A stretch of DNA of 64,000 nt from Kribbella sp. VKM Ac-2568 (GTDB taxonomy: Bacteria; Actinomycetota; Actinomycetes; Propionibacteriales; Kribbellaceae). Numbering within the stretch: position 1 is the stretch's first letter; each line of letters starts with the position of its first letter. Made by a program: the position numbers and the translations under genes. Below are positions 39,414-41,310 of the stretch, piece by piece. Where the stretch lies: positions 558,001 to 622,000 of the forward strand of contig NZ_SLVF01000003.1 in the NCBI RefSeq assembly GCF_004345365.1, in the 5' to 3' direction. The notes beneath the pieces were generated by a model. The model saw only the letters and a list, made by a program, of their open reading frames with translations, made no database searches and was not told the DNA's origin.

Positions 39414-39614
39414 ATGACCGAGTCGTTCGAGACCACCGCCTCGCACCGCCGCGTGCGGGTCTGGTTCGGCGCTCACCCGATCGCGGATCACACCGCCGAC
39501 GCGGACCAGGCCGCGCAGTACGAAGAGGCCATGCGCCGCCGGTTCGCCTCCCTCCGGGTGACCAGCGAGCCCGTTCTCGTCGGCAGCACGGCCGCCCCGG
39601 ACCGGACACTATGA
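39414..39614 (+). CDS. Small conserved-looking protein, unknown
   Basis: Protein of 66 residues (HRRVRVWFGAHPIADHTADA at residues 10-29, then a short charged helix QYEEAMRRRF). It has no recognised domain. TGAAGGA precedes the ATG at 39414. The stop overlaps the start of the next gene as ATGA, so the two proteins are translationally coupled and probably act together. Confidence 0.6.
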   Translation: MTESFETTASHRRVRVWFGAHPIADHTADADQAAQYEEAMRRRFASLRVTSEPVLVGSTAAPDRTL

Positions 39615-39925
39615 CCACCCGCCCGACGCTGCTCGGCTACGTCCGGGCCGACGCGCTCAGCTGCGCCGAGGAGCTCGCCGCGGCGACCGACTCGCTTGTC
39701 GAGTTCGCCTACGCCGAGGGCTACACCCTCGGCACGGTCTACACGGAGCGTGACGCCGCGCAGTCCGCCGCGTTCAACGCGCTGCTGGACGAAGTGAAGC
39801 GGACGGATGTGCGCGCGGTCGTCGTACCGACGCTGCAGCACCTCGGATCGGTCGGCACACCGGCCGCGATGCAGCAGCACCTCGAGTTCCACCAGGCTCA
39901 GGCATGGGCGGTCGACACGAGATAA
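39611..39925 (+). CDS. Degenerate serine-resolvase-like domain protein
   Basis: Protein of 104 residues with the fold pattern of a serine recombinase N-terminal domain: LLGYVRADALSCAEELAAAT, FAYAEGYTLGTVYTERDA, and RAVVVPTLQHLGS. In recombinases the first strand reads YxRVS with the catalytic serine; here the position reads YVRAD, so the nucleophile is missing. The later DRLxR arginine motif is also absent. It is therefore unlikely to recombine DNA; a regulatory or structural role is more probable. No DNA-binding C-terminal domain is present. Confidence 0.6.
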   Translation: MTTRPTLLGYVRADALSCAEELAAATDSLVEFAYAEGYTLGTVYTERDAAQSAAFNALLDEVKRTDVRAVVVPTLQHLGSVGTPAAMQQHLEFHQAQAWAVDTR

Positions 39926-40096: not shown

Positions 40097-40855
40097 TCAG
40101 GCGGTGATCTTGTAGCCGTAGCGCTTCATCACCGCGGCGACTCCCTCGGTGAAGCTCCCGGTCTCCGGCAGCTTGAACTTCACCTGAACCTTCCGCAGTA
40201 CGCGCTGAAAGTGCAGGTGCCAGGGAACCCCGGCCGGCGGGATCGTCTCGGCCTTGGTGATCGCGCCGACCTTCGGATGCGCGGCCCAGGCGACCACCCG
40301 GGCCCGGTCGGCACCCCAGACGCCGGTCATCACGTCGTGGGTCCGCGCGTACGACATCGCGCCGAGCGAGATCGTCGAGTCCGGCACGGCCACCGGGACC
40401 GGAGCCGGGTGGGCCTTCAGGTACAGCTCCCAGGTCATTCCGTGGCAGCCCGTCGGACCGTCGTCCTTGCCGCGATTCGCCAGACCGTTCCGGCGGCGCC
40501 TGTACTCCGCGACCTGGATCGCCGCGCCCCGGGACAGGTCCTTGTCGCCGCAGGCGATCGCGTGCACGTGGTACGGCCAGCGGCCCTGGGCGGGTGTCCG
40601 CAACCACGCGGCGAATCCGACCTGGCGGAGGGCGAGCACGACGGCCCTGCGCTGTGCGGGTGCGAGCTTGGCCACAGCGATGTCGACCGCGCCGCAACCG
40701 TCATGGGTGCCGGCCGAGGCCTCGACGCCACCCTTGTTGTAGGAGCCCTGCATGATCTTGAACTTCGACCGGTACTGCTTCTCCGCCGCCTGGACCATCG
40801 CCACCGTGCGCTTGTTCAGCGCGAACCCGCGCCAGACGATCCTTGCCTCAGGCAT
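40097..40855 (-). CDS. M15/hedgehog-type peptidase-like protein
   Basis: Protein of 252 residues with no signal peptide. AGTHDGCGAVDIAV followed by WPYHVHAIACGD resembles the zinc site (HxxxxxxD ... HxH) of M15 D-Ala-D-Ala carboxypeptidases. The C-terminal part (VKFKLPETGSFTEGVAAVMK) may be a wall-binding module. The beginning NKRTVAMVQAAEKQY looks phage-endolysin-like. Its start overlaps the end of a 39-residue acidic ORF by eight bases. Peptidoglycan hydrolysis is inferred; export route unclear. Confidence 0.6.
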   Translation of the reverse strand: MPEARIVWRGFALNKRTVAMVQAAEKQYRSKFKIMQGSYNKGGVEASAGTHDGCGAVDIAVAKLAPAQRRAVVLALRQVGFAAWLRTPAQGRWPYHVHAIACGDKDLSRGAAIQVAEYRRRRNGLANRGKDDGPTGCHGMTWELYLKAHPAPVPVAVPDSTISLGAMSYARTHDVMTGVWGADRARVVAWAAHPKVGAITKAETIPPAGVPWHLHFQRVLRKVQVKFKLPETGSFTEGVAAVMKRYGYKITA

Positions 40856-40967
40856 CTAAATTACCGAGCAGGAAGTCCGCGTCCTCCGCGGCGCCGAGAG
40901 CCTCCAGCTCGTCCAGGTCGTCCTCGGTCAGTTCATCGTCGAGGATCTCGTCGAAGACGTCCGACAT
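40848..40967 (-). CDS. Very small acidic protein coupled to the M15-like gene
   Basis: Thirty-nine residues, 17 of them Asp or Glu and none Lys, Arg or His (MSDVFDEILDDELTEDDLDE at the start; LGNLDA at the end). GGGGAATGGGCG lies before the ATG. The stop TGA lies inside the first codons of the next gene, typical of translational coupling. It could be an inhibitor or acidic chaperone of the partner, or only a leader peptide that tunes its translation. No family recognised. Confidence 0.5.
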   Translation of the reverse strand: MSDVFDEILDDELTEDDLDELEALGAAEDADFLLGNLDA

Positions 40968-41310
40968 CGCCCATTCCCCTTCCCCCTGACGTCCGGCCGC
41001 CTCCCCCGGCCACCGGAATCGCCTTTCAGGGTAGGGGTCTGCGGGTTCATCCGTCCACGCAGAGTCGGCGCTTGTATGAGGAACGTCAAGTTTCTCGCCA
41101 GGCCGGGTGTGAGGTCACGATGGTGGGGTACGAAATAAGAGTCCCGCGGTTCAGTCGGCCCCATTCGGGCATGGGTGGCGCTCACCGAGCCGCGAGTTCT
41201 CCCACTGAGGGGCGGGAGAACGACCGACGGCGGCGGGCGTATCCCACGATACGCCCGCCCCCTGGCCGCCCTCCGTGACCACTCGACCGCAGCGCTGTGG
41301 GCCAGAAGTG
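40968..41310. other. Intergenic region of about 340 bases
   Basis: Contains the leader and promoter of the minus-strand acidic ORF/M15-like pair and, at 41232-41259, the terminator of the SDR gene. No credible gene is present. Confidence 0.5.
41232..41259 (-). terminator. Terminator downstream of the SDR gene
   Basis: An 11-base perfect stem (GGCGGGCGTAT) with a 6-base loop, 52 bases past the SDR stop on the minus strand. Confidence 0.65.

Follow-up and report, generated by a model that had tools for sequence, protein, structure and literature searches.

A conserved acidic micro-gene overlapping a predicted M15-like lysin gene in Kribbella, and its putative role

The window analysed here, the whole stretch of 64,000 nucleotides from Kribbella sp. 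VKM Ac-2568, holds a frame of 39 codons that runs into the start of a gene for a peptidase-like protein. An original prediction, made from the letters of this DNA, described the frame as an all-acidic chain translationally coupled to an M15-like zinc peptidase, which it might inhibit, chaperone or control at the level of translation. The locus raises three questions: (i) whether so short a frame is a gene and is translated jointly with its neighbour, (ii) what kind of protein the neighbour encodes and which relatives it has, and (iii) what the acidic product might do for it. The features discussed below are collected in Table 1.

Table 1. Features of the locus in the window (positions are those of the forward strand).
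Feature	Position	Strand	Remarks
104-aa protein	39611-39925	+	weak match to a resolvase N-terminal domain, E 0.04
Lysin-type protein, M15-like (LAS-fold)	40097..40855	-	252 aa; no signal peptide by eye
Peptidoglycan-binding-type domain, residues 156-252	40100..40390	-	predicted fold, pLDDT 92.7
M15-like domain, residues 1-150	40406..40855	-	invariant H51, D58, H96, H98
First five partner codons, ATG CCT GAG GCA AGG	40841..40855	-	unusual synonymous conservation
Start/stop overlap, ATGCCTGA	40848..40855	-	8 nt; ATG(C/T)CTGA in 30/30 loci
Small acidic ORF	40848..40967	-	39 aa, 16 acidic, 0 basic, net -16
Ribosome-binding site of small ORF, AGGGGGAAGGGG	40976..40987	-	purine-rich; from sequence and duplex energy
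Candidate 5' leader hairpin	40988..41023	-	weak: mean z -1.2 over 29 leaders
-10-like element, TACCCTG	41027..41033	-	by eye
Intergenic stretch CTCCCACTGAGGGGCGGGAGAACGACCG, upstream of the pair	~41150-41230		present in 3 genomes without the pair

The small acidic gene and its junction with the partner gene

The survey covered 38 Kribbella genomes, and the orthologue of the partner gene was fetched from 30 of them (loci L001-L030). At all 30 loci an ORF lies in the same frame and with the same overlap; it is intact in 29, the exception being L030, where it is damaged. ATG was chosen as the start codon at 28 loci; the two others are L015 (GTG) and the damaged L030 (TTG). The alignment of the small products has seven invariant columns and a core of approximately ELTxxxLDxLEALGAAEDAxxIL, and for the stretch LD-LEALGAAEDA the median dN/dS was 0.33 (431/435 pairs); judged from these substitutions, the core is under purifying selection. 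The original prediction was correct in that the chain contains no basic residue, but it counted 17 acidic residues where there are 16, and "all-acidic" overstates the composition of a 39-residue product. Its proposed good ribosome-binding site was borne out by a duplex energy with the 16S tail of -8.9 kcal/mol in the window (mean over 30 loci, -9.9), as compared with a mean of -4.0 kcal/mol for the background inside genes. Among 162 rough gene calls from the window and 16 other loci, an acidic small ORF adjoined 16 genes, and all 16 belonged to the small-ORF/lysin locus, including the damaged copy L074. We regard the small ORF as a real gene whose product is probably a helical acidic micro-protein. 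Three other identities were set aside: a holin because no membrane segment was seen by eye, a RiPP precursor (an idea raised because the core resembles a leader peptide) because the tail is short and has no Cys, and a Pup-like tag on sequence features.

That the small ORF ends within the first codons of its partner was found at every one of the 30 loci, the shared nucleotides combining the start codon of the partner gene with the stop codon of the small ORF. The ribosome-binding site of the partner gene is the weaker of the two, with a duplex energy of -3.0 kcal/mol in the window and a mean of -5.6 over the 30 loci; the site of the small ORF is the stronger in 28 of these and slightly the weaker in L026 and L028. 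Over 29 loci, codon 4 of the partner gene is GCA in all 28 cases in which it encodes Ala, and codon 5 is AGG in 28/29, while by subtraction GCA makes up about 3% of the Ala codons and AGG about 4% of the Arg codons elsewhere in the same genes. Because these two codons are nearly invariant here and rare in the remainder of the genes, the junction as such is under selection, which perhaps serves re-initiation; the 15-mer formed by the first five partner codons occurs as a single copy in the genome. Taken together, the fixed overlap, the order of a strong and then a weaker ribosome-binding site and the synonymous conservation at the junction make translational coupling of the two genes, as originally proposed, a well-supported reading of the sequences. 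Upstream of the small ORF, an alignment of 29 leaders (without L029) shows no variation in the TA and TG of the -10-like element; a consensus scan for promoters found none, and the six Rfam matches around the locus at E values up to 5 were all below the curated cut-offs, with none on the leader.

The partner protein and its phage relatives

The four His and Asp residues listed in Table 1 are invariant in 19/19 aligned orthologues and fit the pattern H-x6-D ... H, which is the zinc-ligand pattern of M15 / LAS metallopeptidases. AlphaFold2 run on the 19 orthologues gave a pLDDT of 79, and the top structure matches of the N-terminal fold were hedgehog (Z 7.9), the Zn DD-peptidase 1lbu (7.2) and MepA (7.0), followed by VanXYc (6.2), Ply500 (6.2), ChiX (6.0) and VanY (5.8), with unrelated entries at about 5. 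Since all Z scores were below 8 and the Foldseek E-values for this domain were 0.14 and worse, the support for a LAS fold is moderate. The C-terminal 97 residues, modelled alone, matched the N-terminal domain of SleB (Z 6.8), CtpB (6.5) and SleC (5.9), the next match having a Z of 2.5 and the Foldseek E-values being 2.9 and worse; the matched parts of these three proteins we take to be peptidoglycan-binding domains. Neither Pfam nor NCBIfam models matched the Kribbella partner at E values up to 1, and PHROG and endolysin profiles matched none of 19 members. The designation as an M15-like zinc peptidase thus keeps the support of the predicted fold and the invariant residues, but we call the protein M15-like and do not file it as M15, because the curated sequence models of that family give no match. 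At position 92, which precedes W93, the 19 sequences of the alignment have R, N, D or G, and the canonical catalytic Glu is not evident. The partner is best described as a predicted M15-like (LAS-fold) domain followed by a predicted peptidoglycan-binding-type domain, and it is akin to phage endolysins, a kinship that the original prediction did not contain.

The two products carry opposite charges. The small product has a net charge of -10 to -16 (30 loci) and the partner one of +9 to +20 (29 loci), with medians of -13 and +13, and the two values are correlated with r = -0.50 over 29 loci when kinship is ignored. The M15-like domain by itself ranges from +3 to +13 at the Kribbella pair loci, as against -9 to +5 at 64 homologous loci without an acidic ORF; for the homologous domain in the viral relatives (n=49) the charges extend from -9 to +18. 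Five phage relatives of full length that have no acidic ORF next to them are equally basic (L213 +10, L215 +16, L219 +15, L221 +18, L223 +17), so that the basic charge may simply be a trait of phage-type lysins. Conversely, two proteins are near neutral although an acidic ORF precedes them, namely the paralogue L160 (+3) and the phage lysin-like protein L246 (+3).

Among the 49 viral loci with relatives of the partner, the phage contig L212 (54.9 kb) encodes a two-domain homologue that is 53% identical over residues 1-251 and has a net charge of +17. Its gene starts within the stop codon (TGATG) of a 69-residue ORF with a net charge of -18, which shares the core of the Kribbella micro-protein: 28 residues align at 68% identity, with a profile probability of 96% and an E-value of 2.6e-8 in the record. 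The L212 protein matches the endolysin profile phrog_2649 (E 5.5e-5) and PG_binding_1 at an E of 2.8e-4, the latter below the curated cut-off, and the gene after it matches SLT and PG_binding_1. In the tree, L212 groups with the Kribbella orthologues with a support of 96/85 (midpoint root; L212 flagged as a long branch). Scanning the viral collection with the acidic profile gave L212 as the sole contig with a homologous acidic ORF, and a search of 50,697 phage records for the acidic ORF gave no match. The simplest history suggested by these sequences would be capture from a phage before Kribbella diversified, reverse transfer being possible. Because the neighbours are chromosomal and no holin lies beside the Kribbella locus, we speak of a phage-derived gene and not of a phage lysis gene.

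In the more distant phage relatives L240, L249 and L263 the lysin-like gene stands directly behind an overlapping holin gene. The holin genes (L240 3678-3974, L249 3699-3965, L263 2768-2956) end in acidic tails, which might be another means of contact with the lysin. The phage lysin-like gene of L246 overlaps an acidic ORF of 42 residues and net -18 when counted from an inner GTG, or of 75 residues and net -14 if taken in full. Considered as a class, acidic ORFs that precede phage lysin-like genes were no more frequent than background (2/33 vs 3/253, p 0.10) in a rough screen that recognised 33 of the 49 lysin genes, left L212 unreported and included a 2064-codon frame as one of its hits.

Distribution and joint fate of the two genes

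The profile of the small ORF matched 31 of the 38 Kribbella genomes, including the damaged copy in G001. The ORF is intact in 30 genomes, in 29 of them with a complete partner gene (L001-L029) and in one with an interrupted partner gene; both parts are damaged in two genomes (G001 and G076), and both genes are missing at the locus in six (G003, G006, G009, G015, G020 and G021). In G009 and G020 the flanking genes remain and the pair that lay between them is deleted; 15 codons of the lysin gene survive in G020. Read from these genomes, the small ORF and the lysin gene are kept or lost together in Kribbella, most genomes retaining both. Against strict pairing stands G031, in which an intact small ORF lies beside a lysin gene broken near codon 117 at contig ends, where a short repeat suggests an insertion. 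L076 and L075 (Kribbella sp. VKM Ac-2527) are two halves of one locus; the lysin-like gene is broken after about codon 117 and has GTCGCGGA at both break points, a repetition which suggests an inserted element. The record named Streptomyces sp. SID13031 (L062, G036) groups in the genus of the Kribbella genomes and is probably misnamed.

The two genomes with damage to both parts bear on the question which part of the lysin the small product concerns. In G001 (K. turkmenica, L030/L074) the C-terminal domain of the partner is lost, the ATG of the small ORF no longer lies in frame and the core lacks three codons. In G076 (L193) both the C-terminal domain of the partner and the acidic core have been lost in frame, and the remaining 11-codon ORF retains the ribosome-binding site, the start codon and the overlap. 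The C-terminal domain is thus missing in 2/2 genomes with a damaged small ORF vs 0/30 with an intact one (1/496, exact count), an association that was absent from the original prediction. As G001 and G076 fall in different regions of the tree, their losses are probably independent. The suggested link between the C-terminal domain and the small ORF is drawn from these two genomes and could also reflect relaxed selection on the whole operon.

The chromosomal neighbours, a methyltransferase gene and the gene of the 104-aa protein, are the same in 15/15 other named Kribbella genomes compared, and no match to the methyltransferase at E values up to 1e-40 was found in G076, G003, G015 and G021. At the other Kribbella loci compared, too, the 104-aa gene adjoins the pair, and the six genomes without the pair have retained it.

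Outside the pair, 64 homologous loci, which include a Kribbella paralogue (L133) and a locus labelled Deltaproteobacteria (L134), had no acidic ORF of 25-90 aa with a net charge of -8 or below in the 1.2 kb upstream. In most of the other actinobacterial homologues whose sequence was shown, the binding domain precedes the M15-like one, and most of the ten that were printed have a secretion-like N-terminus by eye. An order-wide search with the small ORF gave weak matches (E 4.9e-5 to 0.008) in eight genomes, six of which lie within open frames longer than 200 aa and the other two within frames of 142 and 174 aa, and a phylum-wide search gave two weak matches in 395 other genomes, one of them inside a 275-aa frame. 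The second is a 43-codon ORF of another actinobacterium (G734; L262 1501-1632) that starts with MNDELTDDELDLIEARAA and resembles the core; a crude motif check of its 3-kb locus saw no M15-like frame. A PDB sequence search returned one chance-like match (E 0.028) to what is, by its name, apparently a designed protein. A lack of amino-acid conservation of the small ORF had been put forward as the outcome that would overturn the prediction; inside the genus the sequence is conserved and the prediction withstood this check, but the ORF is missing beside the bacterial homologues examined outside it.

Paralogues of the partner that are 44-55% identical lie elsewhere in G003, G015 and G021, without an acidic ORF. 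In G028, the paralogue L160 (40% identical; L266 5114-5881) has an unrelated acidic ORF 2 nt upstream (L160 5' of 992), of 54 residues from a GTG and with a net charge of -23, among genes that look chromosomal by eye; no acidic ORF was seen at the paralogues L161-L165.

Candidate functions and known systems

We lean, with moderate confidence, towards reading the pair as a domesticated phage lysin with an acidic partner, which would mask or escort it in the manner of Gp1 of mycobacteriophage Ms6. Ribosomes would load at the strong binding site in front of the small ORF and cross the overlap into the lysin gene, so that the acidic partner would be made first and with each lysin, a process for which the junction supplies the anatomy. 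The micro-protein (about -13) would bind the basic lysin (about +13), mainly via the peptidoglycan-binding-type C-terminal domain, and would maintain its solubility and keep it away from the wall within the cell, escort it to its site of action, or both. The pair would stem from a phage lysis module acquired before the Kribbella species split and would have been inherited chromosomally since, a course that we infer from the phage relative, the tree and the synteny. The original suggestion that the acidic chain inhibits or chaperones the enzyme has become likelier through the opposite charges, the joint loss and the occurrence of the same pair on a phage contig. Possible, though on balance doubtful, is a sharper form of this explanation whose probability overlaps with that of the broader one, namely that the acidic protein is an inhibitor, or antidote, which prevents the lysin from acting in the cytoplasm until it is released, and is not an escort. 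The coupled synthesis with the partner made first, the opposite charges and the link to the C-terminal domain speak for it, and a phage lysin in a living cell would presumably need restraint; the link, however, concerns the binding domain and not the predicted catalytic domain, and escort predicts identical genomics.

The strong constraint on the junction, in both overlap and synonymous codons, would also be accounted for if the small ORF were only a translational lead-in whose peptide has no job of its own, and the minimal ORF of G076, which keeps its ribosome-binding site, start and overlap after the loss of the core, agrees with this. We nevertheless consider it unlikely, as the amino acids of the core are conserved, L212 has the same core although its junction differs (TGATG), and G076 lost the core together with the C-terminal domain of the partner. 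Still less probable is a toxin-antitoxin-like mobile module: a small acidic gene does come first and overlaps a potentially harmful second gene, and both are jointly absent in six genomes, but the pair has a fixed chromosomal place with the same neighbours, its Kribbella orthologues form one group in the tree, and 72,556 plasmid records yielded a single partial match, which covers 57% of the query at 53% identity and lies in a Nonomuraea record of 11.9 Mb. Hardly credible is a +1 ribosomal frameshift at the overlap that would occasionally yield a fusion of the two proteins; such a shift would join the two frames and nucleotide conservation is unusually high around the stop codon, yet no slippery sequence was seen by eye and the overlap of L212 is of another kind.

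The masking or escorting partner that we favour might also belong to a class of co-translated polyanionic "wall mimics", in which a short acidic helix would occupy the peptidoglycan-binding domain of a basic lysin and let a phage lysin reside permanently and without harm in the bacterial cytoplasm. This is a speculative and rather improbable extension; the same solution may have arisen repeatedly from unrelated acidic sequences (L160, L246), but the near-neutral charge of the lysin-like proteins at both loci lowers its probability. If the favoured explanation is true, the locus shows a bacterial lineage taming a phage cell-wall enzyme by retaining its tiny acidic partner, and it offers a simple genetic system for the restraint and delivery of signal-less lysins in Gram-positive cells. 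It also illustrates that genes of fewer than 40 codons can be regular partners that length cut-offs miss.

The literature search found no publication on this Kribbella gene pair, a result that does not prove its absence from print. Several known systems are nevertheless comparable. The partner shares its predicted fold with LAS/M15-type phage endolysins (Ply500) or PHROG 2649, and its phage relatives have an endolysin profile or a holin; unlike in those phages, the acidic ORF stands at the position of the holin, the neighbours are chromosomal and the PHROG profiles match no Kribbella member (0/19). The same predicted fold of the catalytic domain is found in the Streptomyces albus Zn DD-peptidase (1lbu). 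Actinobacterial proteins that combine PG_binding with an M15-like domain have a homologous domain in the 64 loci mentioned above, but, unlike the Kribbella pair, these homologues are near neutral and have no acidic ORF upstream (0/64).

For Ms6, the published accounts describe the chaperone-like Gp1 as binding the endolysin LysA, affecting its stability and aiding its delivery (PMC6116114, PMC3111421). LysA is an amidase and is not M15-like, unlike the Kribbella partner, and Gp1 depends on the first 60 residues of LysA, while the Kribbella genomes point to the C-terminal domain. The Kribbella pair further differs in being chromosomal and inherited within a bacterial genus, and the likeness is drawn from features other than the charge or sequence of Gp1. 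What the two systems have in common is a small gene placed directly upstream of a signal-less lysin gene and joined to it by a stop/start overlap (PMC3111421).
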